This document shows, piece by piece, positions 6,357 to 31,386 of a DNA stretch of 35,005 nucleotides. Where the stretch lies: positions 1-35,005 of the forward strand of contig NZ_JAFREN010000028.1 in assembly GCF_017377505.1 (NCBI RefSeq), given 5' to 3'. Position 1 is the stretch's first letter; every line of letters begins with the position of its first letter. Origin of the DNA: Enterococcus sp. DIV0212c. Lineage in GTDB: Bacteria; Bacillota; Bacilli; Lactobacillales; Enterococcaceae. The translations under genes were made by a program, and so were the position numbers. Below the pieces are notes generated by a model. The model was not told where the DNA came from and did not search any database. It worked only from the letters and a program-made list of their open reading frames with translations.

Positions 6357-6513
6357 TTCCCAACAAAAAAGCGGATATATGCTAAAAACCTACATGAAAT
6401 TCGTGTATTTTTAAGGTTCCTTTTAAATATTCCCATTTAGAAAAAAATAAAGATTTTAAACTAGGGTTTCAAATTAATTTATGATACACTTAAAGAAAAA
6501 AAGGAGGAAGCTT

Positions 6514-13840: not shown

Positions 13841-13876
13841 AATAGCCTCGCTTCATAATTGTCTCTCTTGTTTGAC

Positions 13877-14548: not shown

Positions 14549-14582
14549 AGTGCGCCTTCTTTTCTATAAAAATAAATTACTT

Positions 14583-15251
14583 TTAAAACTGTCCCAATTT
14601 ATGTAGCGGAAACAATAACATTTCTACAGTTCCAACGATTTTATTTTCATCGATCAGCCCATAAGCTCGGCTATCAGTGGCAAATGGTCGATTATCTCCC
14701 AAGACAAAATATTTTCCTACCGGAACAGCGTCTACTCCAATTGCTTGTGCTAGTGTGAAATCGTCTGTAAATTTCATTCCAGATTCTTGCACTTTATATA
14801 CTGATTTTTCTAAAAAACGTTCAACTACTTCCTGTTCATTAATCCACAATTGATCATTCTTATACCGGATTCGATCGCCAGGCATTCCAATTATTCTGCG
14901 AACAGCACCTATTTTGCCAGTTTCATCTTTAAAATAAATGAGTTTGAATCTCCTCACTTGACCCAACTTGTTAACAACCACACGATTTCCATCTACTAAT
15001 GTGGGAATCATAGAATATCCCTCAACTTTTGGTAAAGCGATTGTCATTTTTTGTACCAGTATTAAAAGAGCAAGGAAAATACCAAAAGTTATGTATAGTT
15101 CTTTCACTATTTTTCTTCTTGAATGTCGCTTCTTTTTTCTCTTCATCGACTTACTTGGAACGTTGACTCGTTGTTTTATTTTTCTTGAACTAGACTTTTT
15201 CGCAGAAAATGCTTGGGATGAAGGTTTCGATTGTAAATTGCTTACACTCAT
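14583..15251 (-). CDS. Signal peptidase I paralogue with catalytic Lys replaced by Arg
   Basis: A 222-residue SPase I paralogue has a Ser/Lys/Arg-rich cytosolic region (1-50), one membrane helix (about 51-68), Ser80 in EGYSMIPTL and a GDNRPFATDSRAYG box (about 185-198). The conserved YxKRxxGxPGD box reads GAVRRIIGMPGD, so Arg118 occupies the general-base Lys position. I re-read the codons directly (GTT CGC AGA). In this family Lys is needed for catalysis, so it may be inactive or weak. Inactive SPase-like proteins (SipA of streptococcal pilus islands) act in pilus assembly, and a similar accessory role is plausible here. GGAG lies 8 bases before ATG. Confidence 0.88.
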   Translation of the reverse strand: MSVSNLQSKPSSQAFSAKKSSSRKIKQRVNVPSKSMKRKKKRHSRRKIVKELYITFGIFLALLILVQKMTIALPKVEGYSMIPTLVDGNRVVVNKLGQVRRFKLIYFKDETGKIGAVRRIIGMPGDRIRYKNDQLWINEQEVVERFLEKSVYKVQESGMKFTDDFTLAQAIGVDAVPVGKYFVLGDNRPFATDSRAYGLIDENKIVGTVEMLLFPLHKLGQF

Positions 15252-17032: not shown

Positions 17033-17064
17033 TCTAACCTTTCTTAATTGCGATAAAACAAGGT

Positions 17065-17112
17065 GGCAGGAATTCTAGGCTCTTATTGGAAAAAGCTTAA
17101 ACTTTTCCTGCC
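17065..17112 (-). promoter_or_regulatory. Leader hairpin upstream of the DUF916 gene
   Basis: GGCAGGAA (17065-17072) pairs with TTCCTGCC (17105-17112), 33-80 bases before the DUF916 start. On the minus strand it is followed by ACCTTGTTTTAT, a weak T run. It could be a leaky terminator, attenuator or processing site that lowers expression of the machinery genes relative to the WxL genes. Confidence 0.45.
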
Positions 17113-17130
17113 AATATTTGATTTATAATC

Positions 17131-17306
17131 AAGAGGCTGGGACAGAAGTGTTTAACCTCGAAAAATAGGAAAAAATTCATGGAAATTGTTCTTCAAATTT
17201 TTGTGAGTTCCTTCCTATTTTCAAAGTGGTTGCTTCTGATTCCATCGTTTATTCGTAGTTAAGATATAAAACAAAAGTGCTTTTTACTTTTGTCCCCCAC
17301 TCTTGA
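17131..17306. repeat. Palindromic intergenic repeat (GAGGCTGGGACA type)
   Basis: The non-coding gap 17033-17357 holds this nested palindrome. The outer arms are GGGACAGAAGT (17136-17146) and ACTTTTGTCCC. The inner arms are AAAATAGGAA (17162-17171) and TTCCTATTTT (17212-17221). A short hairpin (17271-17293) on the minus strand is followed by TTTTAT and may terminate the WxL gene at 17358. From memory, elements beginning GAGGCTGGGACA are dispersed between genes in enterococci. I cannot count copies here, and only this one is in the window. Confidence 0.55.
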
Positions 17307-17357
17307 CTTCCTTGTTTTTCGTTGCCTTTTATCGATAAAATCGGTATGGACTATTGA

Positions 17358-18197
17358 TTACCCTTTAGGAGTTGTTGGAATTGAAGCCATTGTCCATTCA
17401 ACAACTGCACTATATTTACCTTCTTGCATAACGTTTTTACTTGTTGGAATAGTTAATAACACTGAGTTATTTGGATCTTTTTCTGTTGAACCGTATTGAC
17501 CAAAGTAAAGGTTATATTTACCAGCACCTTTTTCATATTGATCTAAGTTTGCTTTATTAGTATTATCTAACATTACGACTGGAGTACCACCAGTTGTTTT
17601 GTCATATGATAAAGTAGCACCGTTTTGCAAACCATCTGTTGGATAAGCCTCAGCTGGAGAACCATTGGTTGAACTCAATGTCATGTTGCTGTATGCCAAT
17701 GTAGTTCCATCTAATGTATATGTCACATCTTTGCCATTAGCAGCTTTTCTTGAGTTTGTAAATGGTGTAGCAATTTTGGCAGTAATTTTGTAGCTATGAT
17801 CATCAATGACACGTAGATCTTCAAATGAAACGAAGTTAGCATTTTTAATTTCTTTACCAGCTTGGTCAGTTGAAACCCATTCTTTAGCTTGGTAAGGTCG
17901 ATCTGTACCATCTTGTACAATTGCGTGTTTATCGAATTCTAAACGCGTTACAGCAGAAACACCAAACCCTTTAGCATCTGTCCATGGAAGATCAGAACTA
18001 TTTCCAGGAATACCCGTACCCTCACCACTCTGGTTTGGATCAGGTTTATCTTGAGTTATTTCAGTTGAAGTAAATTCGATATCCGCACCTGCAGAACGTG
18101 GGTCACCGTCTGTTGCTTTTGTGTTGTTAGGTAGCGCTACGGCTACTCCAGCTACTGCTAATAACGCAGCGCCGCATAATTTGTGTGTTAATTTCAT
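17358..18197 (-). CDS. WxL-domain surface protein
   Basis: A 279-residue secreted protein has a signal peptide cleaved near TKA-TD (residue 28) and a WxL domain over most of its length. WxL domains bind peptidoglycan non-covalently and hold the protein on the cell surface. The two signature motifs are altered: the first reads SYKITAKI (Tyr136-Lys-Ile138), and the second YSAVVEWTMASIP (Trp268-Thr-Met270). A very strong AGGAGG site lies in a leader shared almost word for word with the BsaA-type gene at 29736. It is the last WxL gene before the DUF916 operon. It is probably abundant, judging from the ribosome site. Confidence 0.9.
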   Translation of the reverse strand: MKLTHKLCGAALLAVAGVAVALPNNTKATDGDPRSAGADIEFTSTEITQDKPDPNQSGEGTGIPGNSSDLPWTDAKGFGVSAVTRLEFDKHAIVQDGTDRPYQAKEWVSTDQAGKEIKNANFVSFEDLRVIDDHSYKITAKIATPFTNSRKAANGKDVTYTLDGTTLAYSNMTLSSTNGSPAEAYPTDGLQNGATLSYDKTTGGTPVVMLDNTNKANLDQYEKGAGKYNLYFGQYGSTEKDPNNSVLLTIPTSKNVMQEGKYSAVVEWTMASIPTTPKG

Positions 18198-18233
18198 TTG
18201 TGTTTCCTCCTAGTTTATGTGTGTTTTATTTAT
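18193..18233 (-). repeat. Shared ribosome-site leader, copy 1
   Basis: This stretch (ribosome site AGGAGG plus AT-rich upstream) matches 29732-29768 except for one substitution and a 4-base indel. Here it is non-coding, between the stop of one WxL gene and the start of the next. Confidence 0.7.
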
Positions 18234-19033
18234 GGCAACTCAGCTATTATCCAAGTTAACACCGTTGAGTAAGTACCCGATACCTTTTTTGTTGCTCCAG
18301 GTATGGATAGATTGATGGCACTATTTGTATAGACTTCTTGATTATTGAAGTCAGGGTCAGTGATGACTTCCCCAGTTTTATTTAATCGCGGACTTAATGT
18401 AACGTCCTGATCGTTAGTATTATCTTTTGAAGCACCAAAAACAATATTCCAAGTGCCCGCCCCAGCAACATCTTCAAACGTTGCATCAGCGAGAGTATAG
18501 GTTTCACCAATATTATTCATTTGAACGACCTCTTTAGAGACCAACGGCGCATTACTCGGATTTTCTACAGAAGTATTAGTCCACGCTTTATCAAATGAAA
18601 GAACTGCACCATTTAATTGATTTTCCGGATGCTCTCCTTGCTGGAATTGACTCTCTTGACGCACTTGTAATTTCCATCCAGTTGTATTTCCACGATAATC
18701 CGAGACCTGAACAAAATTTCCGCTTGGTCCCATGTCGTCTTTATACAGCTGAGCATTTACTAAATATTTAGCATCTTTTTTAGAGATATTTCCTACATCG
18801 AAAGACAACTGTGGAGCAAAATCAATCCTCAAAGCTCCTTTAGTACTCGCAACAACGCCTGGATCAGCACCTTCTAATGTTTCAGGATGTCTAATTTTCA
18901 GATTGGGATCTTCTTTTCCAGAAAATTCAATATCCCCTGTTCCAGATCTACCCTCTTGTGCCCAGAGCACTTCGGAAAAGCTACAACTTCCCACTAAAAA
19001 TACGATTACTGTAGCAATTAGTTTACGCTTCAT
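18230..19033 (-). CDS. WxL-domain surface protein
   Basis: A 267-residue secreted WxL protein. The signal peptide ends near LWAQEG (about residue 25), followed by GTGDIEFSG, the typical start of mature WxL proteins. The first motif is TGWKLQV (Trp120-Lys-Leu122); the second, near the C-terminus, is LTWIIAELP (Trp261-Ile-Ile263). I chose ATG at 19033: AGGAG lies 9 bases upstream, while the in-frame ATG at 19039 is only 3 bases away. The start overlaps the end of the short sortase-substrate gene by 11 bases, so translation is probably coupled. It would attach to peptidoglycan and to the DUF3324 domain of the CscA-type protein. Confidence 0.9.
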   Translation of the reverse strand: MKRKLIATVIVFLVGSCSFSEVLWAQEGRSGTGDIEFSGKEDPNLKIRHPETLEGADPGVVASTKGALRIDFAPQLSFDVGNISKKDAKYLVNAQLYKDDMGPSGNFVQVSDYRGNTTGWKLQVRQESQFQQGEHPENQLNGAVLSFDKAWTNTSVENPSNAPLVSKEVVQMNNIGETYTLADATFEDVAGAGTWNIVFGASKDNTNDQDVTLSPRLNKTGEVITDPDFNNQEVYTNSAINLSIPGATKKVSGTYSTVLTWIIAELP

Positions 19034-19397
19034 CCTCATTTGCTCCTTTCCTTTTGCTTCTTTGCTTCCAAATAAATAAGAATAAAGCTGCAATCAGTAG
19101 GATCAAGCCCCCAATAGACAAACCTGTTTTCGCCAATTCTCCAGTTGATGGATACCTACCTACTGGCTTAGCTTTGGTTGGTTCTGAATTACTTGATTTT
19201 ATGCTAGAATTTGTCGTATCTGTTGTACTTGTAGGTGGTTCTGATGATGGATTTATTTCTTCTTGGAGAATAATTTCACCTTTAGTTCCTACTACTCCGC
19301 CGTTTTCTTCCGCCATTGCTTGAATACCTATCAAACTAAATATCATTAAGCAAAAAAGGGAGGTTATTGCTCGTATATAAAATGAGTTATTATTCAT
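19023..19397 (-). CDS. Short sortase-anchored protein of WxL cluster (CscD-type)
   Basis: A 124-residue wall-anchored protein. It has a signal peptide (about 1-29, ending QAMAEE), a short mature region with a Ser/Thr/Pro-rich spacer (50-78), the sorting motif YPSTGE (82-87), a hydrophobic stretch (about 92-110) and a basic tail KQRSKRK. Such small sortase substrates (CscD) are typical of WxL clusters and may give a covalent wall anchor to the complex. The motif has Tyr in place of the usual Leu. I chose ATG at 19397, with GGAGG 5 bases upstream; the in-frame ATG at 19409 overlaps the preceding TAA and contains that ribosome site. Confidence 0.88.
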   Translation of the reverse strand: MNNNSFYIRAITSLFCLMIFSLIGIQAMAEENGGVVGTKGEIILQEEINPSSEPPTSTTDTTNSSIKSSNSEPTKAKPVGRYPSTGELAKTGLSIGGLILLIAALFLFIWKQRSKRKGANEDEA

Positions 19398-19408
19398 TTT
19401 CCCCTCCA

Positions 19409-22400
19409 TTATGGCTTGTAAGTATCTTCTAAGGAATATTCAATGATTCCTTTATACTTACCCAGCTCTTTTACTTTGACTGCCGGTAATTCAAATTTGA
19501 AACCGGGACTATCCCTTAAAGCTCCCCAAGTTGCACTGACATCATAAATCGCAGTATTAGAAGCAGTCAATAAATCTTGCGTTCCGTCATTTAATGAAAA
19601 TTCCTCTTTTCCAGGACTCTTATAACGGATTGCTCCAACAATAATCTTTCCATTATTATTTGTTAACGGTGTCGTCATTTTTGCTTTTAGTGTCCAAGAT
19701 TTTTTATCGGAACGGCTGTCGCTAACGACTAACGGAGCATCATAGCTTGGTTGATTCACTCTAATTTCATTACCATCCATTGCTTTGGTTCCGAAGTTCA
19801 TTTCGCTTGGAACGGAAGAGAACTCCAACACTCCTTTGTAGTAAAATTTGACTATAGAATGCTCGCCATATTTCACTTTAACAACACTTGAAAGTGGCTG
19901 TTCATCGTTATCAATGATGATTTTACTTAATACGTATCCTTTAATTTCCTTTGCATTAAATGTAGCTTCTTCACCAATAATTCCCTGTTTTGGCTGTTCT
20001 TGTGCAAGTTCAACCTCTGTTTCTTCTTCTAAATGTTGAACAGTGATAGCTGCAATTCTTGGTTTAATCGTGAACGATTTCAATTCCCCAGAACTTCCTG
20101 TCACAGTTGCTTTATCTGCTGATTTCCCACTAAGTGTATATGCTTGTTTGACTTCTAAAGTTTTTGCTAATGGTGGCGTAGTAATTTTAGAAACTACATC
20201 GTAAGTCAATCTATACGTAACACCAGGTTCTAAATCACCCAACTTGACCTTTAATTTTCCACTATCATCAATCATAGATTTCCCAGTTTCCAGAAGCTGA
20301 TCATTCAGTTTTACACTGCCTAAATCAACATCGACATTTTTCGGGAATGCTTCTGTCGTTTCATATACTGCACCCGTTAAATCTGATGGTGCTACAGCAG
20401 TATTTTTAAAGGTTGATGTAAATGTTACCTTTTCACCTTCTGAAATTTCTGGTAATGAAATCTCTAAGTCTGCTATTAGGACTGGCTTCACTTGATAATA
20501 AAAAATCACCTCAGCGACTTCGCCATATTCGATTGAAACTGGATCAGTCAATGTTTTTTGTACAATACCATCAATCATGATCTTACTTAGCAAGTAACCT
20601 TCAAAATTTTTAGACGGAATTGTATCTGAACTACCCGTTAGTCCTTCTTTAGGAGATTCAAGCTCTCCTAGCGGTGTAGTTGTCCCGTCAATTAGATACC
20701 GAACGTTGAGTGTTGATAGTTTTGAGACAATTGTTGCTGTCGCTTGTGGTAGATCTTTGGTTGGCATTGAAAAGTCTTTAAAATCGGCCGCTACGCCAGA
20801 TTTCCCTGTTACTTCATCAGGAATAATAACCAAACGCTCTCCAATTAAAGTTTCAGAATCAATGATTTTCCCAGTAAATTGAACTTGTAATTTACCATCT
20901 TCAAGAATTTCGTCGTCAAAAGTAAAATCCAAAGTCTTTCTAGTGGAATTGAACGTTCCTTTAACTACTTTTGTTCCATCAGTAATTGAAATATCCTTCA
21001 GTGATGCAGTGTCAACGATTGTCGTATTGATTGGAATCGAAACTTTGTTGCCAAATAATTTCGAATACGGTGTCTGCATTGCTAAATCTAGGTTATAAGT
21101 AAACTCGCCACCTATTGCAACCTTATCACTTACTTTATTTTTGACCTTGATTGAAGATGTTCCAGTTAATTCCGGATCTGGGTAAACAAAACTATATACT
21201 ATAGTTTTAACATCTGTTTGGCGGCCGTCACCATCTTCCATATAAATTTTAACGGTATGATCAGCCGTCGGTTTAAACGTTAAAGGAATTTCGAAAAGTT
21301 CTATACTCCCTAGATCGTCCTCTGAATCATAACTAATAGGCAACTGCCGTTCCGCTCCATCATCGATCGTATATTTGATCATTCCAGTGACTGTCTCGTA
21401 GGTTTTCCATGTTCCTTTAAGTAGTGCACTATGCTCGCCGTCTTTTGCTAAAGTATACTTCCAATCATCATCCGTAATGTTCAACGTTGGATGAATATCT
21501 TTGATTTCTGAACCATAAATCCATGCAGTATTTCTCGTATCCCCAACAGCCAAGTCTTGTGGATTCCACTTCATACTAATTGTTGTGTCAGTTCCACCTT
21601 CAACAGTCCCTTTCGGATCATCATTAATAACAGTATCTTTCAGTATCCCCACATTTTCTTGTCCTTTAGAAAACAGGTCATTAGGATCATCGAATCCTTT
21701 CATGAAAACAGTACTGTCACGACTCCCCATACCGTATTTCCCAACAAAAGGCTCTGCCCAAGCTGACCAGTTGTCGGCCCCATATCTATCAAGACTTGGA
21801 TAAATTTCTGCTCGATAAATACCTTCACTGTCAACAGCGTAAACCCCCAAATTTTTTCCTAAGTATTTGACTGAACCTGGGATACCAGAACCATTAGGTG
21901 TATTATTAGAATTGTAATTAGTAAATTTCACTTCAGGTGTGTAATTATAGCCGATCATCATCTGTGGAATTGGCTTATCCCCAATATTTTTAATATCGAA
22001 ACTGATGCGAACCTGTCCATCTTTTGTAGGGTAGTACGTATTATCAACTTGAACCAAATACGTATCCCCTTGTTGATCTTTAAGGGTCACCTCATACAGA
22101 TATTTCAATGCTCTCATTTCTAATCCATTTGTCTTGGAGTCCCTAGACACACTCTTTTGATAAATCTTAAATGTCTTACGATCTATCGTTGGCTCTGCTG
22201 GTGATAGATCATATGGAGTAGCTCTTCCTGCTGAAGCCTCTTGAATTGTATTAACATCATTCCCTATAGCAAAAACTAACCCCAATGATTTCAAATTAAG
22301 GTTCCAGTTCGGCCTTACTCCACCACTTTGTCCTAAATCTACGTTTCTTCCCAAAGAAGCTTTTTTGAAGGGTATTCCAAAATGTATTCCACCAGTTCTA

Positions 22401-22741
22401 GGAAAAAATTCTATAAATGGCACATCGGATCTTCTTCGTTCAAAATAGTAATTCTCTGCAGGATCAGCAACAGCTCTTTTACTACCACCAGGCGCAAGCT
22501 GAGTGGCCACGTTTGCGTTTATCGTAAGCTTGTCGCCAACCGTGACAAGCTTATCCGGATTATATAAGTACGTATTGACAGTTGATTTAGCTGGATTTTC
22601 TGTTTCAATCCATCCTGTTTTTGGATTACCATCCCATTCCGGCCAATTTGGTACTGCATTCACTTGTGGATTATTTGAAAATAGTGTCATTCCTAAAATG
22701 ACGATTACACCACTAAAAAAACACATTTTTTTATTTTTCAT
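19409..22741 (-). CDS. Large WxL-domain surface protein with MucBP-like repeats (CscC-type)
   Basis: A 1110-residue secreted adhesin-like protein. It has a signal peptide (about 1-29), a large N-terminal domain of unknown fold (about 60-420, rich in aromatic strands) and beta-sandwich modules. Two MucBP-like repeats lie near 678-748 (LNVRYLIDGTTTPLG) and 897-970 (ITVQHLEEETEVELA), both ending in YGE-x-x-x-V-x-FYY. The space between holds a DUF11-like module, and a C-terminal WxL domain begins near 974. Its first motif is SWTLKAKM; the last is degenerate, YKGIIEYSLED. MucBP domains bind mucin-type glycans in other proteins, so host or polymer binding is likely. AAGGAGG precedes ATG. It heads the WxL gene block, directly after its regulator. 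Confidence 0.92.
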   Translation of the reverse strand: MKNKKMCFFSGVIVILGMTLFSNNPQVNAVPNWPEWDGNPKTGWIETENPAKSTVNTYLYNPDKLVTVGDKLTINANVATQLAPGGSKRAVADPAENYYFERRRSDVPFIEFFPRTGGIHFGIPFKKASLGRNVDLGQSGGVRPNWNLNLKSLGLVFAIGNDVNTIQEASAGRATPYDLSPAEPTIDRKTFKIYQKSVSRDSKTNGLEMRALKYLYEVTLKDQQGDTYLVQVDNTYYPTKDGQVRISFDIKNIGDKPIPQMMIGYNYTPEVKFTNYNSNNTPNGSGIPGSVKYLGKNLGVYAVDSEGIYRAEIYPSLDRYGADNWSAWAEPFVGKYGMGSRDSTVFMKGFDDPNDLFSKGQENVGILKDTVINDDPKGTVEGGTDTTISMKWNPQDLAVGDTRNTAWIYGSEIKDIHPTLNITDDDWKYTLAKDGEHSALLKGTWKTYETVTGMIKYTIDDGAERQLPISYDSEDDLGSIELFEIPLTFKPTADHTVKIYMEDGDGRQTDVKTIVYSFVYPDPELTGTSSIKVKNKVSDKVAIGGEFTYNLDLAMQTPYSKLFGNKVSIPINTTIVDTASLKDISITDGTKVVKGTFNSTRKTLDFTFDDEILEDGKLQVQFTGKIIDSETLIGERLVIIPDEVTGKSGVAADFKDFSMPTKDLPQATATIVSKLSTLNVRYLIDGTTTPLGELESPKEGLTGSSDTIPSKNFEGYLLSKIMIDGIVQKTLTDPVSIEYGEVAEVIFYYQVKPVLIADLEISLPEISEGEKVTFTSTFKNTAVAPSDLTGAVYETTEAFPKNVDVDLGSVKLNDQLLETGKSMIDDSGKLKVKLGDLEPGVTYRLTYDVVSKITTPPLAKTLEVKQAYTLSGKSADKATVTGSSGELKSFTIKPRIAAITVQHLEEETEVELAQEQPKQGIIGEEATFNAKEIKGYVLSKIIIDNDEQPLSSVVKVKYGEHSIVKFYYKGVLEFSSVPSEMNFGTKAMDGNEIRVNQPSYDAPLVVSDSRSDKKSWTLKAKMTTPLTNNNGKIIVGAIRYKSPGKEEFSLNDGTQDLLTASNTAIYDVSATWGALRDSPGFKFELPAVKVKELGKYKGIIEYSLEDTYKP

Positions 22742-22926: not shown

Positions 22927-23649
22927 CTACTTTTTGTTACCGTCAACTAACATGTACCCTTTTGAACGAACTGTTTTAATATAATTTGGTTGAGCTGGAT
23001 CTATTTCTAATTTCTTACGTAAATGGAAAATTAAATTACTAATTCGATATTGTTTCGTTCCTTCTTTCTCATTACCGAAATCATTTTTCCAAACATTTTT
23101 ATAAAGTTCTTCATATGTGATTGCTTTTCCAATATGTTCTAATAAAAACGTGATCGTTTGAAATTCCAATCTAGTAAGACTGATTTCTTTACCTTCCAAA
23201 ATAATACTTAAATTATTTTGAACCAACTCCAGATGTCTATTATTTTTCTTCTCTCGTTCATTAACCACTGTTCCTGCTAAATTTTCCTGTTCGTCTTTGA
23301 TTCTATTTAATATATTTGAAAATTGAAGAATCGCTTCTTCTTGCTCCTTTTCATCAGATACACCGTCAGCGCCTAATTGAAGATACACAATTTTATTTGT
23401 TTGCGTCATTCTTTTACACACAATCCAAATCAATGCTTTAAAATTACGCCTAAGTTCTAGAATTAATTCACAAGTGTCTTTTAATTCGACCGCTGTAGAT
23501 TCTTCAATTATCAAAGCATCCATTTTTGAAGCTTCGTTAAAGACGTCTTCAGTTGTTAATTGATATAGGCGATACGTTTTTGCATTTAAGTTGCCGGAAT
23601 ATGTATTAACTGTTCGTTCTTTTTCTTGTATGATCCCTATGTTGTACAT
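22927..23649 (-). CDS. OmpR-type regulator with degenerate receiver (WxL locus)
   Basis: A 240-residue DNA-binding protein. Residues 1-120 keep the outline of a response-regulator receiver (IVYLQLGADGVSD matches the GADDY region), but the acidic pocket is lost (Gln8, Glu9). The phospho-Asp position, in MDALIIEES, is Glu49. Residues about 145-236 form an OmpR-type winged helix (SLTRLEFQTITFLL, ISNLIFHLRKKL, IKTVRSKGYML). No histidine kinase is nearby. It is therefore probably phosphorylation-independent or locked. It lies directly upstream of the large WxL gene and should control that locus. A paralogue lies at 30652-31386. Confidence 0.88.
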   Translation of the reverse strand: MYNIGIIQEKERTVNTYSGNLNAKTYRLYQLTTEDVFNEASKMDALIIEESTAVELKDTCELILELRRNFKALIWIVCKRMTQTNKIVYLQLGADGVSDEKEQEEAILQFSNILNRIKDEQENLAGTVVNEREKKNNRHLELVQNNLSIILEGKEISLTRLEFQTITFLLEHIGKAITYEELYKNVWKNDFGNEKEGTKQYRISNLIFHLRKKLEIDPAQPNYIKTVRSKGYMLVDGNKK

Positions 23650-24066: not shown

Positions 24067-24222
24067 CTATTTGATAGCAATTTCACCAAAATCATTGTTT
24101 TTATAATCCCAACTATAAAATGGTGACACACCAGCGAATAGTTTAGGGGCAATATACACCGTTAGCCATTGATCTAAGCCTTTAGAAAGATCGATCGATT
24201 CAATTGGCTCCTTCATTCTATT
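24067..24222 (-). pseudogene. Duplicated C-terminal fragment of the lectin/Cna-B protein
   Basis: Reading the minus strand from 24222 gives 51 codons to a TAG at 24067. By hand they align without gaps to the last 51 residues of the lectin protein (489-539) with 31 identities, including WLTVYI, PFY, WDYK and NDFG. An in-frame stop lies just upstream, so the rest of the gene is missing. The frame is intact and has its own ATG at 24216 with AAAGGAA upstream, so a 49-residue peptide could be made 11 bases after the preceding gene. I read it as a remnant of a second lectin gene or a partial duplication. A retained small protein is the alternative. Confidence 0.75.
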
Positions 24223-24227
24223 CCTTT

Positions 24228-24851
24228 CTACAAACTCTGTAACTTAGTATCTATTTTCAGCAACTCACTTGCAGTTGGTACTTTTCCATTCCACCAAGCA
24301 TCTCTATACTGCTGTTTACCAGTAATAATCGTTTCACTTTTAATGTGAATCTGCATACTTGCGCCATTATAAGCTTCGTCCAGATTATCAACTAAAGTAA
24401 CTTGGGTAAATAGAGGAGATGTAGTTTGATCTTTTTCAACTTTACCTAAATAGTAATAATACCCATCTTCACCTAATAACCAGTCTTTACCTAGATCTAT
24501 TGTTAGCTCTTTTCCTATATTGCCTGCCAACAAAATCCCATCTGCTGATTGAATTTCTGGCGTTACTAAAACTCTGACAAAAAAAGATGTTCCACTCGGA
24601 TTCGTTACGGTCACTTCTTTTGGGTAGGTTCTTCCTGGTGTCATTGGATCTTCAACCGTCGGAGGGACAAAACTCTCTTTGATGGTTCCGGATAAATTAT
24701 TGACTTGAAAATCATTCGTTACTTGATCTGTTGCAGTTAGTGCAGCGTAAACCGTCCTTGTTCCCCAAATCCCTAGTATAAAAAAGACTGTGAACAAAGA
24801 AATCAAAAAAAATTGGCCTTTAAATGATCTTTTTTTGCGTTTATTTTTCAT
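24228..24851 (-). CDS. BsaA/TasA-like SipW-dependent matrix protein (third copy)
   Basis: A 207-residue exported protein. The basic N-terminus (MKNKRKKRSFKG) and a long hydrophobic segment lead to TVYAALTATDQVTNDFQ, the position and style of SipW-type cleavage sites. The mature part starts GTIKESFVPPT, followed by TPGRTYPKEVTVTNPSGTSFFVRV, a pattern shared with the other two BsaA-type proteins here. It ends with the WWNGKVPTASELL region. It is probably a fibre subunit or cap. I chose ATG at 24851, at the basic signal peptide start; an in-frame ATG at 24989 would add an implausible segment and overlaps a terminator. It lies downstream of the lectin gene after that terminator. Confidence 0.8.
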   Translation of the reverse strand: MKNKRKKRSFKGQFFLISLFTVFFILGIWGTRTVYAALTATDQVTNDFQVNNLSGTIKESFVPPTVEDPMTPGRTYPKEVTVTNPSGTSFFVRVLVTPEIQSADGILLAGNIGKELTIDLGKDWLLGEDGYYYYLGKVEKDQTTSPLFTQVTLVDNLDEAYNGASMQIHIKSETIITGKQQYRDAWWNGKVPTASELLKIDTKLQSL

Positions 24852-24945
24852 CAGTTTATTTTCCTTTCTATTAGCTCGCTGTCCTTTTAAGAAGATCTGC
24901 CTTACAGTTCTCCAATAAAAAACTAACAAAATTTTATTTTTGAAT

Positions 24946-24997
24946 AAATTAAGAAAGGTGAGCAATACAAAACTGTATGCGTCTTGCATTACTCACC
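24946..24997 (-). terminator. Probable terminator after the lectin gene
   Basis: GGTGAGCAATACAA (24957-24970) pairs imperfectly with TTGCATTACTCACC (24984-24997). On the minus strand TTTCTTAATTT follows. It separates the lectin gene from the third BsaA-like gene, which may therefore have its own promoter or rely on readthrough. Confidence 0.6.
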
Positions 24998-25101
24998 CAA
25001 AACATTAAAGAAACACTTTCATTCATCCTAAGCTATTAAAATCAACTATATTTCTCACTAATTTTAATTTGCTTATAGCTTATCTGAGCCAAAGAGCGCC
25101 T

Positions 25102-26721
25102 TCACTTAATAGATATTTTGCCAAAATCATTTAGTTTATAGTCCCAATTATAAAACGGGGGTCCATCTGTTAATAATTTAGGCTCAATATAAACTGTTAA
25201 CCAATATTTCAAATTTTTGTTAAAATCTATTATTGGAATTTCTTCTGTTTTTCTATTAGATGAGTTATGAATTGTCTTGGAGTCTGTAAGCTGATAGCCC
25301 GCATAAGAATAAAATGCGGGAATCTTCAAATCAACTTTATACCCACTATATTTCTTTTCATTCAATGACAATGAAACAGTTTTAAAAGACTGGTTTGTAT
25401 CGGCAACACAAGTCGGAATTATCATGCTTAATGTTTGTTTTATATCCAAAGTGTTATCAATTGGTATATTTTTCAGCAAAGTAGCCAGCGTTGTTGGAAC
25501 AACTAAATCCTGATTAGGTGAAATAACTTCACCTTTAATATTTAGATCAGCATTCTTTTGGGGGATCTTTTTATTTGTAATAGTAGCGGCAAAATAATTC
25601 TCTGTTTTATTACCATCTACTTCAAATGGGTATTTTGTATCGTGATCTTCTTGATATCCCTGTGGAGACTTTACTTCTTTAGCATAATAGTTACCATTTT
25701 CTAAATTTACAGGCAAATAGATAATACCGTCATTATCGGTTTTCAAATTAGCCAATACCTTTATACCGTTACTCGTAAATATATCAAATTCAGCATCCGG
25801 AAGTTTAATATTATTATCGTCTTCGTCTACCTTTTCTATCATCGCTACTGGAACTGCAAACGTTATTTCATTTATCTTAAATTGTTGCAGATTTTTTTGA
25901 CCTCCTGTAGAACCCGAAAGAATTAAACTTTTAGCCGATGGAGCATCTGTATTAATCAATCCATTCATATCTATACTCCAGATTTTAAAAACGTCACTAT
26001 CGTTATATTGACTAGAAAACAATTTAGATGAATAACTATAATTTACAAGCAAATTTTTAAACGTGTTATTTGCAGGTGCTACTATCTCTTGTGGTGATGA
26101 AAATGGTCCATAAATATCTTTATTATCAACTGTCTGTATGGATTTGGCAGCATCACTCTTTCCAATAATGAAAGCTCCAAAGCTCTTATTTTTAAATCTA
26201 ACAGGATCTGCATCGGCTTTACCAACCGTACCATATACAGAATTATAATACGTATCTAGCTTAAAACCCAGACTACCGTTCAAACCACCTAGTCCAAAAC
26301 CATTTCCCGCTCCACCGATGGAAGTTATGCTATCATCGTGGAAACCAATCCCCATACCATCAGCACCCCCTTGTGCCTGGCTTTTATTTCCAATATTGAC
26401 ATCCACATCAATGTTTATATCTTGGTCAAATTTAATTTTTTTATTGAATGTTGCTGAACCGACTTGATACTGAACATCGGGTGTCACAGTTAAGTAACCT
26501 GAATTTTGATCGTACGTAGCAGAACCATTTAACTGAAAGTAATCTAAAAAATTATCTTTTGTTATCGTAATGTATCCTTTTATGTCTGATAAATTCCCCT
26601 TCAATTGCTCATTTTTGCCTTGAATATTTTCAACATTCATCTCGACTCCAAATGCTTTTGTTGGACTTAAACATTGTGATATGACTATCAAAAACATTAA
26701 AATTTTAATTATTTTTTTCAT
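25102..26721 (-). CDS. Secreted L-type lectin plus Cna-B protein
   Basis: A 539-residue secreted protein has a signal peptide (about 1-26, ending KAFGVEM). The L-type (legume-like) lectin domain (about 55-290) carries QGGADGMGIGFHDD (Asp121) and LGFKLDTYYN (Asp156, Asn160), which correspond to carbohydrate and metal-site residues. A SpaA/Cna-B domain (about 294-375) has the isopeptide candidates Lys297 in MIEKVDE and Glu349 in YYAKEVKSPQGY. The last 160 residues form a domain I do not recognise; its final 51 residues recur as the fragment at 24067. There is no sorting signal or WxL motif, so it must be held by partners, plausibly the TasA-like fibre encoded around it. Confidence 0.85.
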   Translation of the reverse strand: MKKIIKILMFLIVISQCLSPTKAFGVEMNVENIQGKNEQLKGNLSDIKGYITITKDNFLDYFQLNGSATYDQNSGYLTVTPDVQYQVGSATFNKKIKFDQDINIDVDVNIGNKSQAQGGADGMGIGFHDDSITSIGGAGNGFGLGGLNGSLGFKLDTYYNSVYGTVGKADADPVRFKNKSFGAFIIGKSDAAKSIQTVDNKDIYGPFSSPQEIVAPANNTFKNLLVNYSYSSKLFSSQYNDSDVFKIWSIDMNGLINTDAPSAKSLILSGSTGGQKNLQQFKINEITFAVPVAMIEKVDEDDNNIKLPDAEFDIFTSNGIKVLANLKTDNDGIIYLPVNLENGNYYAKEVKSPQGYQEDHDTKYPFEVDGNKTENYFAATITNKKIPQKNADLNIKGEVISPNQDLVVPTTLATLLKNIPIDNTLDIKQTLSMIIPTCVADTNQSFKTVSLSLNEKKYSGYKVDLKIPAFYSYAGYQLTDSKTIHNSSNRKTEEIPIIDFNKNLKYWLTVYIEPKLLTDGPPFYNWDYKLNDFGKISIK

Positions 26722-26865
26722 ATTTTGTTACCCTTTCAAAAATGGTACTCCTCTTGATTAACTTCCCTCTATTAATTATCCAGATCAATACTGTATTAAG
26801 CATTTTTGAATCTGTATTAATTGAGTTTGAAAAACAACTAGTAAGAAGAGTTGCACATGAATTTT

Positions 26866-27708
26866 TTATTTCAGTTGTTCAGCCAATAATGAATAGACTT
26901 TCCCACTCTTATCCAGTTTCCATTCATCTACTAAAGGCTGAGTCAGGTCATGAGCGTCCATATAAACTTTTAATTTATAAAACATCCCTTTATATTTGTT
27001 TGGAAGCCCGTTTGATAACGTCACACTTTTCAATAACGGTTCGCTCCATTCACCCGACTCTAATGGTTTTAAATAGTAAAAATAGCCATTCTCATATGTC
27101 CAATTTTTTTCTAGTTCATTTGGAGGTGTTTCTTTAAATGTATCAGCAAAATTTAAGGTGATATAGTTCAACGTTGTCTTTGCTCTTTCTAAGCTATTAT
27201 ATTCATACATCCCTGTTTTATTGATCGGATCAGATACTATTGCGGTGTCTGCTACATAGTAGTGACCAGTGTTAGCATACGTTCCATGATTCTCGGCTGC
27301 TTTGACCCAAGTATCTGTATTCTCTTCATCTAAAATAGGTTGTGTTGGTGCAGAAACAGTTTTCAAATTACCATTTCCTGTTTGATCTGTATTATCTACT
27401 TGTAGCGTTGCTAAAAACTCATAGAGTGAAACACGAACAAAGCTTGTAGCTTGTCCACTATTTTTGATTCTTATTTCTTTAGTCGTGGTACTTCCAGGTT
27501 GCCAATTTCGGTTAGGCACAAAAACTTCATCAATTTCTGCCGTCAGTTTTGTTCCTTTAAAAGTATTTACACGATTATCTGATGAGTTAAGCCAGGCATA
27601 TGTTCCGCTGAAGGCAGTTACGCCGACAATAAAAGTAGTAGTCAGCAGTCCCATTAACCACTTGCTCTTTAAAGTATTTTTTCGGTTCTGCTTTGACTTT
27701 TTTTTCAT
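26866..27708 (-). CDS. BsaA/TasA-like SipW-dependent matrix protein (second copy)
   Basis: A 280-residue protein of the TasA/CalY (camelysin) superfamily, BsaA branch. The basic N-terminus and hydrophobic core end in SGTYAWLNSSDNRVNTFKG, the characteristic SipW-type cleavage region. The mature domain begins EIDEVFVPNRNWQPGSTTTK then EIRIKNSGQATSFVRV, as in the other copies. A large insertion (about 110-190) separates the jelly-roll strands, and the C-terminus has YFYYLKPLESGEWSEPLL and MFYKLKVYMDAHDL. The family forms extracellular fibres in biofilm matrix. AAAGGAGG lies 9 bases before ATG, 18 bases after the preceding sortase-substrate gene, so the two are co-transcribed. Confidence 0.88.
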   Translation of the reverse strand: MKKKSKQNRKNTLKSKWLMGLLTTTFIVGVTAFSGTYAWLNSSDNRVNTFKGTKLTAEIDEVFVPNRNWQPGSTTTKEIRIKNSGQATSFVRVSLYEFLATLQVDNTDQTGNGNLKTVSAPTQPILDEENTDTWVKAAENHGTYANTGHYYVADTAIVSDPINKTGMYEYNSLERAKTTLNYITLNFADTFKETPPNELEKNWTYENGYFYYLKPLESGEWSEPLLKSVTLSNGLPNKYKGMFYKLKVYMDAHDLTQPLVDEWKLDKSGKVYSLLAEQLK

Positions 27709-27726
27709 GTCTTACAGCCTCCTTTC

Positions 27727-28446
27727 TCAGCGTTCATCTCTTTTATCTTTCTCAATTTTTGAGCGTTTCGATTTCCAAACTAGTAATACAATTAGAATAA
27801 GAAACAAGCCTAAACAAAGAAAAATCATTCCTTGTCGTATAGCCTCTCCTGTTGAAGGAAATTTCCCAAAAGGTTTTTTAATCACCGATTCTATCGTTGA
27901 TTCTGTTGTTGGAGCTGTTGTCGATATAGCATAAAAAGACCACACATTATCCATGACATTCTTAACAACAAAATCTTGGTTTGTGTACTGTCCAGATAAG
28001 GAAAAATCGACTTCTAACGCACGGCTATCTCCTGCCTGAAAAACACCTAAATCCAGTGGTTTTTGTTGTAAATTTATGCTATCGCTAACACCTGAAATAG
28101 GTCCTTTATACACGACTTTACTTTGATAAGTCAGCGTCATTTGGATGGCATTTGATAGGTCAAGATTACCGGAAACTTGTGCCGGAGAAATCAACATATT
28201 GAGCTGATAGGGAATTCCCTTTTCCATATTGACCATGGAAATAGTAGTGTGCCATTGTTTTCCTGGCATCACATCCGTAACCTCCATTAAATATTCACCA
28301 TTTTCTTTAGCCATAATGCCATTTTCATCACCAACAACCATTCCAGGCGGCAATTCTTGCGCATGCGTTTGAACTGGATGTACTCCAATAACCAACAATC
28401 CGAATAAAAAGAGATAAAAGATTTTTGACCATTTATTGTGCGCCAT
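27727..28446 (-). CDS. Sortase-anchored protein with TasA/CalY-like ectodomain
   Basis: A 239-residue protein has a Sec signal peptide (about 1-29, THAQE). Its ectodomain (about 48-172) resembles the TasA/camelysin jelly roll: EVTDVMPGKQWHTTISMVN, IPYQLNMLISPA, IQMTLTYQSKVVYKGPI and LDLGVFQAGDSRALEVDFSL follow the order seen in CalY/TasA proteins. A short Thr/Ser spacer leads to the sorting motif FPSTGE (196-201), a hydrophobic segment and a basic tail. It lacks a SipW-type signal, so it is probably the wall anchor or base of the fibre. AGGAGG precedes ATG. It starts a transcript after a terminator and a leader with inverted repeats. Confidence 0.82.
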   Translation of the reverse strand: MAHNKWSKIFYLFLFGLLVIGVHPVQTHAQELPPGMVVGDENGIMAKENGEYLMEVTDVMPGKQWHTTISMVNMEKGIPYQLNMLISPAQVSGNLDLSNAIQMTLTYQSKVVYKGPISGVSDSINLQQKPLDLGVFQAGDSRALEVDFSLSGQYTNQDFVVKNVMDNVWSFYAISTTAPTTESTIESVIKKPFGKFPSTGEAIRQGMIFLCLGLFLILIVLLVWKSKRSKIEKDKRDER

Positions 28447-28452
28447 TCTTTT

Positions 28453-28561
28453 CCTCCTAGTTTTAAAGCTAGATGTTCATGTTTTGAAATGCACATTATA
28501 AATGAGTTTTTTGCTCATTACACGTTGCCATTTCCTCTGAGAAATTTACTCATCTAGCTTG
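28453..28561 (-). promoter_or_regulatory. Leader with nested inverted repeats upstream of the anchor gene
   Basis: AAGCTAGATG (28466-28475) and CATCTAGCTT (28551-28560) are perfect inverted repeats. They enclose a second one, AATGAG/CTCATT (28501-28519). The ribosome site (28453-28460) follows directly and could pair in part with CTAG of the repeat. A TATAAT-like sequence inside the repeat leaves open whether this is a transcribed leader or an operator region. Confidence 0.35.
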
Positions 28562-28613
28562 ATAATGTGACTTAACATTCATTTACAACTTCGTTATATT
28601 CTTTAATTGTTTC

Positions 28614-28665
28614 AAAAAAATAACTGGTTAGTGGTTGATGATTGGATGCATCACTCACTAACCAG
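28614..28665 (-). terminator. Strong terminator after the first BsaA-type gene
   Basis: CTGGTTAGTG (28624-28633) pairs with CACTAACCAG (28656-28665), extended by a partly paired inner stem. Seven Ts follow on the minus strand (28614-28620). It closes the SipW-BsaA transcript. Confidence 0.88.
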
Positions 28666-28713
28666 CTAATATTATTGTAACTATTGAACTATTTTATTTT
28701 TTCATTTAATCTT

Positions 28714-29736
28714 CTATTTGAATAAACCTTCTAAAGCCGTTGTTAAATCAGCATTTGTGTTATTTACCCAATCAGTACTGTTAACAGCTTCTTTCGCTGC
28801 TTGGATACCTGTAGAATTAACAATTAAGTCGAATTGTACTTTACTGTAGCTGTTATCTGCAGTATTTGCTAATGTAACTGAGTCTAATAATTGTGCTGTT
28901 TGAGTTTGTGATGCTACAATACCTACATAGTAGAAGTAACCATCTGCTGCATTGTAATACCATTTACCAGTTGTTGGTGTTGACGCTAAATTAACAAAGT
29001 TTAATTTAATGTTTGAGTCTGAACCTGCATCAACTGTCGCAGTACCATTTGCATCGATTGTCAAGGTTGGTTTGTATGTTGGCGCTTTTGCCCAATCCAT
29101 ATCAACTGGTGTTGCTGCTAGATCTACATATTTAAATTCTGCAGCTGAAGGTGTAATTGTTCCGTCTTCTGCACGGCTATATGAACCAGCTTTTGCATAA
29201 TATTGTTCTGTACCATTATCCCAATATGAAACATAACGGTATGTTGAACCAGCTTCGGTTGTTACAACTTGTTCTTTTGCTTTTAATGTGTAAGTTCCTG
29301 CGTAATCGCCGCCTTCAACAACAAATGTTGTTGCTGCCACTTTAGATGGTGTCCAATCCCCAGTTTTTTCTGTCAATGGATATAAATAAACCTCTTTTTT
29401 TGTTTTTCCATTTAAAATTGCTGGATCATTACTTGTTTTTGAAGAAGCATCCGTTAGTTTTGTTAAAATTTCACTAAAAGATACACGGATCATTGAATCA
29501 TAGTCACCTGAGTTTAAAATTGCAACATCTTTATTTACTTTTTGTCCAGGCTTCCAATCAGTTGGTGGCGTAAAGGTTTCGACTACTTCTACATCACTAC
29601 CGGCAATATTCCCCTCAAAGTGGTTTTTTGCGCTATCTTGACTGGTAAACCAGGCAAATGTTCCTGCTAATGCAGCCATAGCTGCTAGTGTTGTAGCAGC
29701 TACAACCCATTTTTTCTTGTTCTTATTTTGTTTCAT
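28714..29736 (-). CDS. BsaA/TasA-like SipW-dependent matrix protein (first copy, major subunit)
   Basis: A 340-residue protein of the BsaA family of SipW-dependent biofilm matrix proteins. The basic N-terminus (KQNKNKKK) and hydrophobic core end in GTFAWFTSQDSAKNHFEG, a textbook SipW cleavage context. The mature part has VETFTPPTDWKPGQKVNK then AILNSGDYDSMIRVSF, shared with the other copies, and an Ala/Thr-rich insertion (about 100-230). It is directly downstream of sipW, overlapping its stop (ATGA), with a strong AGGAGG site and a strong terminator. That makes it the likely abundant fibre subunit. In Clostridium perfringens, BsaA with SipW makes matrix polymers; the same role here is inference. 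Confidence 0.9.
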   Translation of the reverse strand: MKQNKNKKKWVVAATTLAAMAALAGTFAWFTSQDSAKNHFEGNIAGSDVEVVETFTPPTDWKPGQKVNKDVAILNSGDYDSMIRVSFSEILTKLTDASSKTSNDPAILNGKTKKEVYLYPLTEKTGDWTPSKVAATTFVVEGGDYAGTYTLKAKEQVVTTEAGSTYRYVSYWDNGTEQYYAKAGSYSRAEDGTITPSAAEFKYVDLAATPVDMDWAKAPTYKPTLTIDANGTATVDAGSDSNIKLNFVNLASTPTTGKWYYNAADGYFYYVGIVASQTQTAQLLDSVTLANTADNSYSKVQFDLIVNSTGIQAAKEAVNSTDWVNNTNADLTTALEGLFK

Positions 29737-29768
29737 TGGTGTTTCCTCCTAGTGTGTGTTTTATTTAT
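29732..29768 (-). repeat. Shared ribosome-site leader, copy 2
   Basis: This is the near-identical partner of 18193-18233. Here the leader is translated as the last codons of SipW (ending NINKTHTRRKHQ) while also carrying the AGGAGG site for the next gene. Confidence 0.7.
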
Positions 29769-30563
29769 ATTAACCTTAGATAAGGTAATATCAGTTTTAG
29801 GTTTTGTTTTTCGTTTTTTCTGAGGATGACTTTTTACTGAACCATTTAGGATATAAATTCGAGTGACCCAGACAAAACCAGTAATGCTGATCAGAAAGAT
29901 AAGTGAAACAAGCCAATTTTCTTTTATGAAAGCTAAAATGCCACCGATTTTCGGCACACGAACCGTTACTTTCCCAACTAGTGCTCTAGAGCTGATGGGT
30001 AAATCATCGGATTTGTTCGCATCTCCCCGAGTAGTGAAGAAGATCCCTTTTTCTTCACCCAAATGATCATCTATTTTAGCCACTCTATGCGTTAGAAAAT
30101 TAGTACTTTTATTTGTTGGATTCGTTGATGGACGATAGGTGATTACATCCCCAACTTTTACTTGCTCAGCAGAAACTTCTTTGATAACCAACATATCACC
30201 GGCTCGAAATCCACCATTTTTTAAGGTGTTATCTGGCGAGACCATTGAGTTGGTTAAAACACCAAACATTCGATAGCCGTTTAATGCCTTATCTTGTTGC
30301 TGCATTATCGCCATTAAACTAGAACCTACCAACAAACTCAGCATCAAAACATAGAAAATGATATTCCAAATGAAGAGAAATAATCTTTGTCCTTTTGAAG
30401 GAGGAAGTGGAGATTTTTTTTTCTTTTTCCGATTCACCGATCCATTTTTACTGGGTGATCCAGAACTTCCTACTTTACTTTTGGCTTTACGAGTATGATC
30501 AGAATTAGTCTTCCTCGTTTTGCTCTTCTTTACAGAACCGTTTGGTTTTTCTTTATTCATCAT
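29733..30563 (-). CDS. sipW: ER-type signal peptidase SipW
   Basis: A 276-residue signal peptidase of the SipW/ER type, using a Ser-His dyad. It has a very basic, Ser-rich cytosolic extension (1-60, with NRKKKKKSP), a membrane helix (about 61-86) and catalytic Ser106 in LTNSMVSP. His159 in FLTHRVAKID takes the place of Lys, and the acidic box is TTRGDANKSDD (Asp181). A second helix (about 217-238) and a basic tail follow. It should process the BsaA/TasA-type proteins encoded downstream. I chose ATG 30563 (or 30560, one residue shorter) because GAGG lies 5 or 8 bases away; an upstream in-frame start lacks a site. It is 88 bases after the regulator gene. Confidence 0.92.
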   Translation of the reverse strand: MMNKEKPNGSVKKSKTRKTNSDHTRKAKSKVGSSGSPSKNGSVNRKKKKKSPLPPSKGQRLFLFIWNIIFYVLMLSLLVGSSLMAIMQQQDKALNGYRMFGVLTNSMVSPDNTLKNGGFRAGDMLVIKEVSAEQVKVGDVITYRPSTNPTNKSTNFLTHRVAKIDDHLGEEKGIFFTTRGDANKSDDLPISSRALVGKVTVRVPKIGGILAFIKENWLVSLIFLISITGFVWVTRIYILNGSVKSHPQKKRKTKPKTDITLSKVNINKTHTRRKHQ

Positions 30564-30651
30564 TTCATCCTCTATAGTTTTTTTACTAGCTTTACAGCTA
30601 AAGACTTTCATAACTATCAGTCAGCTTGTTTCTGTTATTACATATATTTAA

Positions 30652-31386
30652 TTAGAATATATATGAATGTTTTGCATTCATTAACATATATCCTTTTGAT
30701 CGGACCGTTTTGATATAGTTCGGATGTGCCGTATCTAATTCCATTTTCTTCCGTAAATGAAAGATTAGATTGCTTATTCGATATTGCTTATTCTGTGAGT
30801 CCGAATTTGTATATTTATCTTGCCAAATCGCTTTATAAATTTCTTCATAGGTCACAGCTTTACCTTTATTTTCTAGTAAAATCGAGAGTATTTGAAATTC
30901 AAGTTTGGTTAAACTGATCTCTTTTCCCTCCAAAACAACACTTAAGTTGTTTTGGATGAGCTTTAGCTGACTTTGGAAAAGTTCTTGCTTATCATATGAG
31001 AAAATTTTGTTTTCCACTTCTCGTTCATTTGTAAATCTGTTTAATATATTGGAAAATTGTAATAAAAATTCTTCTTGCTCTACTTCAACATCTACCACAC
31101 CATCCGCTCCCAACTGAAGATAAACAATCTTGCTTGTTTTGCTCACTTTTTTAGATACAATCCAAATCAAAGCTTTAAAGTTACGTCTAAGTTCTAAAAT
31201 CAGTTCACAAGTACGGTTCAACTCAACTAATGGAGATTCTTCGATTATTAAGGCATCCATTTTTGAGGCTTCGGTAAATATGTCAGCTTTTGTCAGCGGA
31301 TATATTTGATATCTTGTTTTATTGAACTGTTCGGTGTATCTACTTTTTTTCAGATTTCCAGTTGGTATGATGCCTATCTTATACAT
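30652..31386 (-). CDS. OmpR-type regulator with degenerate receiver (fibre locus)
   Basis: A 244-residue paralogue of the regulator at 22927. The receiver outline is present (IVYLQLGADGVVD), but the N-terminal acidic pair is replaced (Pro8, Thr9), and Glu49 in MDALIIEES is at the phospho-Asp position. The C-terminal winged helix (about 147-238) includes ISLTKLEFQILSILL and RISNLIFHLRKKM, almost the same recognition region as its paralogue. This suggests overlapping DNA targets. No terminator separates it from sipW 88 bases downstream, so it may be autoregulated within the operon. AAAGGAAA precedes ATG. It is divergent from the Mga-like gene at 31723. Confidence 0.88.
   Translation of the reverse strand: MYKIGIIPTGNLKKSRYTEQFNKTRYQIYPLTKADIFTEASKMDALIIEESPLVELNRTCELILELRRNFKALIWIVSKKVSKTSKIVYLQLGADGVVDVEVEQEEFLLQFSNILNRFTNEREVENKIFSYDKQELFQSQLKLIQNNLSVVLEGKEISLTKLEFQILSILLENKGKAVTYEEIYKAIWQDKYTNSDSQNKQYRISNLIFHLRKKMELDTAHPNYIKTVRSKGYMLMNAKHSYIF

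Follow-up and report, generated by a model that had tools for sequence, protein, structure and literature searches.

Gene content of the probable fibre locus

The window analysed here, i.e., the whole stretch of 35,005 nucleotides from Enterococcus sp. DIV0212c (contig NZ_JAFREN010000028.1), carries a unit of eight minus-strand genes, encoding in this order an OmpR-like regulator, the signal peptidase SipW, BsaA1, an LPXTG protein, BsaA2, a lectin protein, BsaA3 and another OmpR-like regulator. We consider it probable that this unit specifies a wall-anchored fibre with a docked, exchangeable tip adhesin; the lectin protein and its relatives are therefore called tip proteins below. The genes, with the best profile matches of their products (aa, amino acids), are as follows.

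30652..31386, minus strand: OmpR-like DNA-binding regulator (PF00486, 68.7 bits)
29733..30611, minus strand: sipW, ER-type (Ser-His) signal peptidase I (TIGR02228, 70.1 bits, cut-off 51.85)
28714..29736, minus strand: BsaA1 (TIGR04090, 119.5 bits, cut-off 60)
27727..28446, minus strand: putative wall-anchored LPXTG protein with a Sec-type N-terminus and the sorting signal FPSTGE
26866..27708, minus strand: BsaA2, second SipW-dependent subunit (TIGR04090, 76.1 bits; PF12389, 28.9 bits; both above the cut-off)
25102..26721, minus strand: lectin tip protein (PF18483, 177.5 bits; Cna-B-like SpaA domain PF17802, 57.2 bits), with an L-type lectin at aa 53-284, SpaA at aa 295-375 and the shared C-terminal domain at aa 388-539
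24228..24851, minus strand: BsaA3, third SipW-dependent subunit (start corrected)
22927..23649, minus strand: second OmpR-like regulator (PF00486, 62.9 bits)

SipW, three BsaA-like proteins, an LPXTG protein and a protein with lectin and SpaA domains had been named in a preceding sequence-only reading of this DNA, and the profile matches found all of them on the minus strand. The assignment of SipW to the Ser-His type likewise held, as TIGR02228 scored above its cut-off and both motifs were found (Ser within 'TNSM', His within 'THR'; in the whole SipW set, the SM motif occurs in 69 of 70 sequences and THR in all 70). The ATG at 30563 is also a possible start of sipW. While BsaA1 and BsaA2 exceed the TIGR04090 cut-off, BsaA3, scored on a longer open reading frame, reached 52.7 bits, below the cut-off of 60, and was tied to BsaA1 by profile comparison (hhalign, E 1.7e-23). 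Its start is very probably the ATG at 24851, because the paralogues align there and a Shine-Dalgarno-like stretch, GAAAGGAAA, lies upstream. With its left edge at 24067, the locus as first delimited also includes the remnant of another tip protein, a stump of 49 codons.

The two flanking OmpR-like regulators are paralogous and are kept at the same places in E. moraviensis, the one at 30652-31386 being located upstream of sipW. No receiver domain was listed for the latter in the Pfam scan, and no kinase gene was found among the scanned neighbouring genes. In another locus (L014), a similar OmpR-like gene was seen by eye between bsaA2 and bsaA3.

One C-terminal domain, many heads

The C-terminal part of the lectin protein contains the following features.

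25102..25560, minus strand: shared C-terminal tip domain, modelled as a seven-strand beta-sandwich followed by a disordered conserved peptide (AlphaFold2 pLDDT 86.7; alignment A7, 31 sequences)
25114..25161, minus strand: conserved C-terminal peptide PPFYNWDYKLNDFGKI, candidate docking peptide, modelled as disordered

The domain comprises about 150 aa and ends in a conserved tail, PYSWDYKxNxLGxI; its best-conserved run of 15 residues lies within the candidate docking peptide listed above. Alignment A7 was made from the window and 30 named loci, several of them from assemblies also present in the genus survey set. It had no Pfam match, and a profile search of PDB sequences returned one match only (E 0.25); the best of the PDB fold matches listed for it are Gram-positive pilins. 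In the four big proteins compared first, the likeness was confined to the final 110-180 residues, for which all pairs reached a blastp E of 4.1e-11 or better. The same was seen in 76 tips drawn from two overlapping genome sets, duplicate genomes included: their tails gave a blastp match in 5665 of 5700 ordered pairs, versus 1306 matches and 11 clusters for the heads, some clusters having single domains in common (e.g., the lectin of the window and that of locus L036). Pfam matches in the head, obtained for 11 of the 23 tips scanned, comprised vWA with GBS104-like Ig, L-type lectin, 13 SpaA stretches, RCC1, a pectate-lyase-like adhesive domain, DUF11, AgI/II C2 and others. Matches of the vWA head part further include SpaC, a pilus adhesin, and Mfa5, a fimbrial subunit, and the lectin domain of the window is related to SraP (4m00/4m01) and to 7yl4.

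On these sequence comparisons, we read the C-terminal domain as a docking module of exchangeable tip adhesins, and docking of the big protein on the fibre through this domain is likely. The lectin had earlier been described as embedded; since its C-terminal domain recurs in many proteins that occupy this operon but differ in their heads, it is better regarded as a plug-in terminal adhesin. It seems improbable that the big protein is instead a TapA-like base or assembly starter, with the C-terminal tail as the first donor strand and the head lying near the wall or released. TapA does donate a strand and start TasA filaments, according to PMC9674648 and PMC10151520, and the conserved tail is predicted to be disordered on its own; however, proteins with adhesin domains and lengths of up to 2351 aa would fit a distal place better, and the wall anchor is another protein.

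Kinship of the tip domain with TasA was rejected, as hhalign gave 0.9% to BsaA3 and 0.3% to the anchor; the absence of TasA from the listed fold matches carries no weight. The idea that the tail peptide mimics the BsaA donor strand arose from D-x3-N-x-F noticed in both. In a profile scan at a width of 11 residues, the N-terminal windows of the three BsaA proteins ranked 2nd to 4th of 1026 in one register; with 13 residues, BsaA1 was 4th, BsaA2 8th and BsaA3 outside the top ten; with 16, BsaA1 alone remained in the top ten (5th), and in the reverse control the best tail window was 7th of 140. This idea was dropped as evidence, because it was post hoc and BsaA1-3 are homologous.

In locus L025, a secreted trypsin-like/Big_2 protein (11627-14206) is encoded between bsaA3 and the tip gene, and a larger open reading frame with a similar start was seen by eye at the same place in L024 (11592-16985).

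Replacement of the tip gene

The E. moraviensis locus (L012) is collinear with the window, the DNA being 78% identical for 4.6 kb as far as the end of bsaA2, 74% across bsaA3 and 79% for a further 1.3 kb (blastn). Two features interrupt this collinearity.

24852..26867, minus strand: 2.0 kb segment without counterpart in the E. moraviensis locus, carrying the lectin tip gene (blastn breakpoints versus L012)
24067..24221, minus strand: remnant of a lost tip gene, with an ATG of its own at 24216 and 49 codons, covering the last third of the docking domain

Conversely, the window lacks 1.6 kb of the E. moraviensis locus, namely its tip, save for the last 155 bp of the tip. The stump scored 51.7 bits with the tip-domain profile, and its peptide shows 77.6-79.6% identity with tip tails of the E. 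moraviensis type versus 61.7% with the window's own lectin tip. By this comparison, a tip of the E. moraviensis type was evidently lost except for the stump, and the lectin tip was gained. The tail of the lectin tip still matches that of the E. moraviensis tip (91 bp at 25114-25204, 83.5% identical as DNA); heads could therefore recombine within the conserved tail.

Among the 63 tip-bearing modules on the tree, 17 changes of head type are counted, and five head types occur in the six-locus clade to which the window belongs. Weighing against free exchange, heads follow the module tree far more closely than shuffled labels do (20 changes versus 41, with 16 groups). The tree was obtained by a quick search without bootstrap and with long-branch warnings; it took in 66 of 85 loci, three of them without a tip, and omitted 13 without BsaA1, LPXTG protein or BsaA3 and six without BsaA2.

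Proteins resembling the resolvase N-terminus, with a hydrophobic C-terminus, are encoded beside several fibre loci (L010:1475-2182, L025:17819-18562), and similar neighbours were noticed by eye in L027, L029 and L044. PF00239 scored slightly above its cut-off in two of the three tested, with none in L044. Perhaps these proteins take part in regulation or cassette exchange.

Distribution and conservation of the operon

The source genome has two more copies of the operon, on contigs 8 and 34, and a further copy lies on an E. wangshanyuanii plasmid. With profile A1, built from the three tips of the source genome and one of E. wangshanyuanii, the tip domain was found in 21 of the 22 genomes of the genus, the source genome included, at 47 places including the window stump. 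Six family profiles were used to read the remaining 46 places, all from the genus survey set: 40 have the order SipW-BsaA1-LPXTG-BsaA2-BsaA3-tip (in one of them, L078, sipW is in two frames), three give no BsaA2 match, two consist of a tip alone, and the window is the only one with the tip ahead of BsaA3. Given this shared order and the two further copies in the genome, the six-gene arrangement is far from chance. Thirty-four named loci were found with BsaA2, in Enterococcus, Vagococcus and Isobaculum, apart from one Clostridiales record with SipW and two BsaA-like matches only; 27 have the full order, three are cut at the start, and three have no tip, two of these ending at a contig end and one being that of Isobaculum.

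Of 105 genomes of the family Enterococcaceae, 31 have the tip domain (E 1e-3) and 30 have BsaA3 (E 1e-10); both are present in the same 30 genomes, one has the domain only and 74 have neither (Fisher 2e-25, the genomes sharing ancestry). The exception, G073, has a weak domain match ending before the tail and no BsaA3 match even at 1e-5. The system is widespread in genus and family and not confined to this locus; the lectin is one head among many and does not define it. Single genomes of a second genus of the family (G035 and G027) contain 12 and 17 tip-domain places.

Among genomes sampled more widely, the domain was detected in 37 of 395 from the order and in two of 398 from the phylum, both belonging to this order and one being the window's own. 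Per-genome copy numbers are low in the order survey, because up to nine candidates per genome were scored (nine versus 26 in Isobaculum). In two other families, half of the 20 tip places read have a module directly upstream (six canonical, three without BsaA2, one variant) and half do not. These 20 were hand-picked from 38 listed, omitting nine of G288 (taken as the Vagococcus genome of the profile set), five of G209, three of G228 and one of G265; as the shaft profiles include Isobaculum and Vagococcus rows, this reading is not fully held-out. Among the ten places without a module, three are the closing genes of type IV pilus operons and a fourth has a similar ending, all four without a PYSWDY-type tail; four are in Isobaculum, L136 lies just upstream of a same-strand sipW, and the genome of L134 has BsaA3 elsewhere.

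At L121, L122 and L127, which belong to other families of Lactobacillales, the last gene of a type IV pilus operon encodes a protein that has this beta-sandwich domain; two of the three proteins carry heads of the commonest fibre-tip cluster, and the C-terminal end differs from the PYSWDY tail. The pilus genes were confirmed by Pfam for L121, the one locus checked; a pilus ATPase, PilC and a prepilin peptidase, present there, are absent from the Pfam results for the window locus. The same adhesin parts thus seem to serve two filament systems, the fibre and the type IV pilus.

Isobaculum melis (G209 = G824, with the same places) has one module, with no tip beside it, and 26 tip-domain places, 25 of which reach the end region of the model while one stops at position 140. 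Whole tips may be fewer than 26, as four places have open frames of only 167-329 aa. The 20 places read fall into eight head clusters, and three of ten heads scanned gave Pfam matches (MucBP; DUF11; lectin plus DUF11). The simplest reading is one shaft with many possible tips, which would presumably use this shaft.

A reading of the big protein as a free-standing secreted adhesin that only shares a transcript with the fibre genes appears very unlikely. The two orphan tips among the genus places and the 26 Isobaculum places against one module would suit it; on the other hand, the domain co-occurs with BsaA3 in all but one of the domain-positive family genomes, and Isobaculum, with its tips scattered, retains one module.

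In a Clostridiales metagenome-assembled genome (L045:7428-11678), SipW, several SipW-type BsaA-like reading frames and a frame ending in LPQTS plus a hydrophobic stretch were seen by eye; this may be a SipW locus with a wall anchor, but no tip match, outside Lactobacillales.

Anchor protein and shaft subunits

A sorting motif was found in 68 of 72 anchors, versus 1 of 72 BsaA1, 0 of 66 BsaA2 and 2 of 72 BsaA3 (3 of 210 shaft subunits pooled) and 0 of 82 tips. The N-terminal pattern A-[WAFY]-x8-N, devised after the alignments had been viewed, occurs in 71 of 72 BsaA1, 64 of 66 BsaA2 and 57 of 72 BsaA3 sequences, and elsewhere in 0 of 72 anchors, 1 of 82 tips and 4 of 70 SipW. The mature N-terminus of BsaA1 is disordered in the monomer model. 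Profiles of BsaA1, BsaA2 and BsaA3 gave zero matches with PDB sequences, and that of the anchor only matches at E 0.21 or worse. The family matches and the sorting motif support the earlier assignment of the locus to the SipW/BsaA fibre type, with a wall anchor of the sortase kind. Its description of the LPXTG protein as TasA-like is not established: hhalign gave 92% to BsaA3 over 90 columns that include the signal peptide. Residues 177-230, in the C-terminal part of the anchor, match NF053819 (EF0750/EF2685 family) with 36.8 bits, below the cut-off of 47.

A less likely alternative is a loose biofilm matrix fibre, of the kind made by TasA or C. perfringens BsaA, in which the lectin protein would be embedded along the length; we regard it as unlikely. 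In its favour, BsaA1 and BsaA2 belong to the BsaA family, and C. perfringens BsaA forms filaments in the absence of its neighbouring sortase and occurs mainly outside the cell (PMC7395162). Yet the module includes a sorting-motif protein, whereas no LPXTG-like motif was predicted in C. perfringens BsaA (PMC7395162); several heads are of the tip-adhesin type, and at 40 of 46 places of the genus the final gene of the operon encodes a single big protein.

No sortase gene was found in the three operons of the genome by a PF04203 search, whose four places lie on contigs C10, C21 (C21:6820), C32 and C4, and none on C8 or C34. The one in the window (6481-7251, plus strand; C21:6820), about 17 kb from the fibre operon, matched NCBIfam class C best, though with 68.8 bits, below the cut-off of 160. 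Sortase-driven polymerisation is unsupported, the operons having no sortase and the shaft and tips nearly no sorting motifs.

A WxL-type cluster (15959-22741) directly adjoins the fibre locus, with genes for WxLIP (15959-17032), a WxL protein (18230-19093), an EF0750-type small LPXTG protein (19023-19409; weak match of 27 bits to the fibre anchor profile) and a 1110-aa protein with sub-threshold WxL and MucBP matches. Among the operon proteins themselves, neither a WxL domain (PF13731) nor WxLIP was matched. Further on, two type I signal peptidases (PF10502) stand side by side at 13877-15251, adjoining a YfhO-like membrane protein.

Expression

One feature between the shaft and anchor genes may bear on the amount of BsaA1.

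28614..28668, minus strand: hairpin with a 13-bp stem followed by UUUUUUU, between the BsaA1 and anchor genes, candidate partial terminator (fold z -4.46)

The GGUUAGUG/CACUAACC-type stem occurs also in E. moraviensis (z -2.27) and, slightly altered, in E. wangshanyuanii (z -3.60). The hairpin is not general, since the bsaA1-anchor gap is only about 20-35 bp in the genome's other two copies. It was detected by folding and missed by a simple promoter and terminator scan, which was uninformative (33 promoter-like matches versus 38.3 in shuffles; six terminator-like versus 3.7). In C. perfringens, a terminator is predicted after bsaA, with a short sipW-bsaA transcript and a longer read-through transcript (PMC7395162). 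From the hairpin and this parallel, we infer that BsaA1 is produced in larger amounts than the other subunits and constitutes the bulk of the fibre.

Proposed assembly

From the anatomy of the locus and the documented swapping of its heads, we infer fibre formation, a tip position and strand exchange as follows. SipW would free the N-termini of BsaA1-3, whose mature N-terminal strands would each complement the next subunit, as in TasA, in a non-covalent assembly; BsaA1 would form the shaft, and BsaA2 and BsaA3 would serve as adaptors. A sortase whose gene lies elsewhere would attach the LPXTG protein to peptidoglycan, so that this protein would hold the fibre base, and the tip protein would dock at the far end via its C-terminal domain and conserved tail peptide. 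Through this common docking domain, heads (here an L-type lectin) could be exchanged without altering the shaft.

Formation of a fibre by SipW-processed BsaA subunits is highly likely by family membership; wall anchoring via the LPXTG protein is nearly as likely. Docking at the fibre tip is reasonably probable; strand exchange as the joint is favoured by a small degree, and the tail peptide as the plug falls slightly short of an even chance. Still more tentatively, the system might be a Gram-positive counterpart of chaperone-usher pili, with a strand-exchange shaft, a sortase-substrate anchor and a universal docking domain with a C-terminal plug peptide, the Isobaculum shaft serving some 20-25 tips in trans and heads moving between fibre and type IV pili.

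If the proposed assembly is true, Lactobacillales have, in addition to sortase pili and type IV pili, another kind of surface fibre with a tip, adhesin specificity is set by an exchangeable cassette, a large set of unannotated proteins ending in PYSWDY-type tails acquires a role, and the capping, wall anchoring and specificity of TasA/BsaA-like fibres, a long-standing question, become testable.

Comparison with known systems

A description of such an enterococcal fibre system was not found in searches of open-licence PMC, judged mostly from listings (subscription papers and preprints being outside this scope), in agreement with the earlier statement that no described system combining such parts was known. 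Sortase-assembled pili of the GBS104 and SpaC type have a pilus sortase in the cluster and sorting signals on shaft and tip pilins. The fibre system resembles them in the vWA/GBS104-like tip heads and the pilin-like stalk domain, and differs in the near absence of sorting motifs from shaft and tips and in the three operons having no sortase. In type 1 (chaperone-usher) pili, FimH forms a two-part tip, with a lectin in front and a docking domain behind. The lectin protein would have the same layout; in contrast, there is no usher or outer membrane, and domain homology to FimH is not claimed. WxL/small-LPXTG (EF0750) clusters are approached through the EF0750-type resemblance of the anchor and the WxL cluster next door, whereas the fibre operon itself is without a WxL or WxLIP match.

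The tapA-sipW-tasA operon of Bacillus subtilis is similar in SipW processing and in the N-terminal donor strand of TasA (PMC9674648 and PMC10151520); the mature N-terminus of BsaA1 is likewise disordered in the monomer model. The sipW-bsaABCRSD operon of C. perfringens (PMC7395162) likewise combines SipW with BsaA-family proteins and a predicted terminator after bsaA; its polymerisation does not need the neighbouring sortase, and the operons here have no sortase gene. C. perfringens differs in that its BsaA is without a predicted LPXTG-like motif, its polymer is mainly extracellular and its operon includes a two-component system; the locus here has instead a putative base protein of the LPXTG type and a protein with the tip domain, and next to its OmpR-like regulators no kinase gene was seen. 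The kind of fibre is known; its anchoring and a universal docking domain for exchangeable heads would be new.

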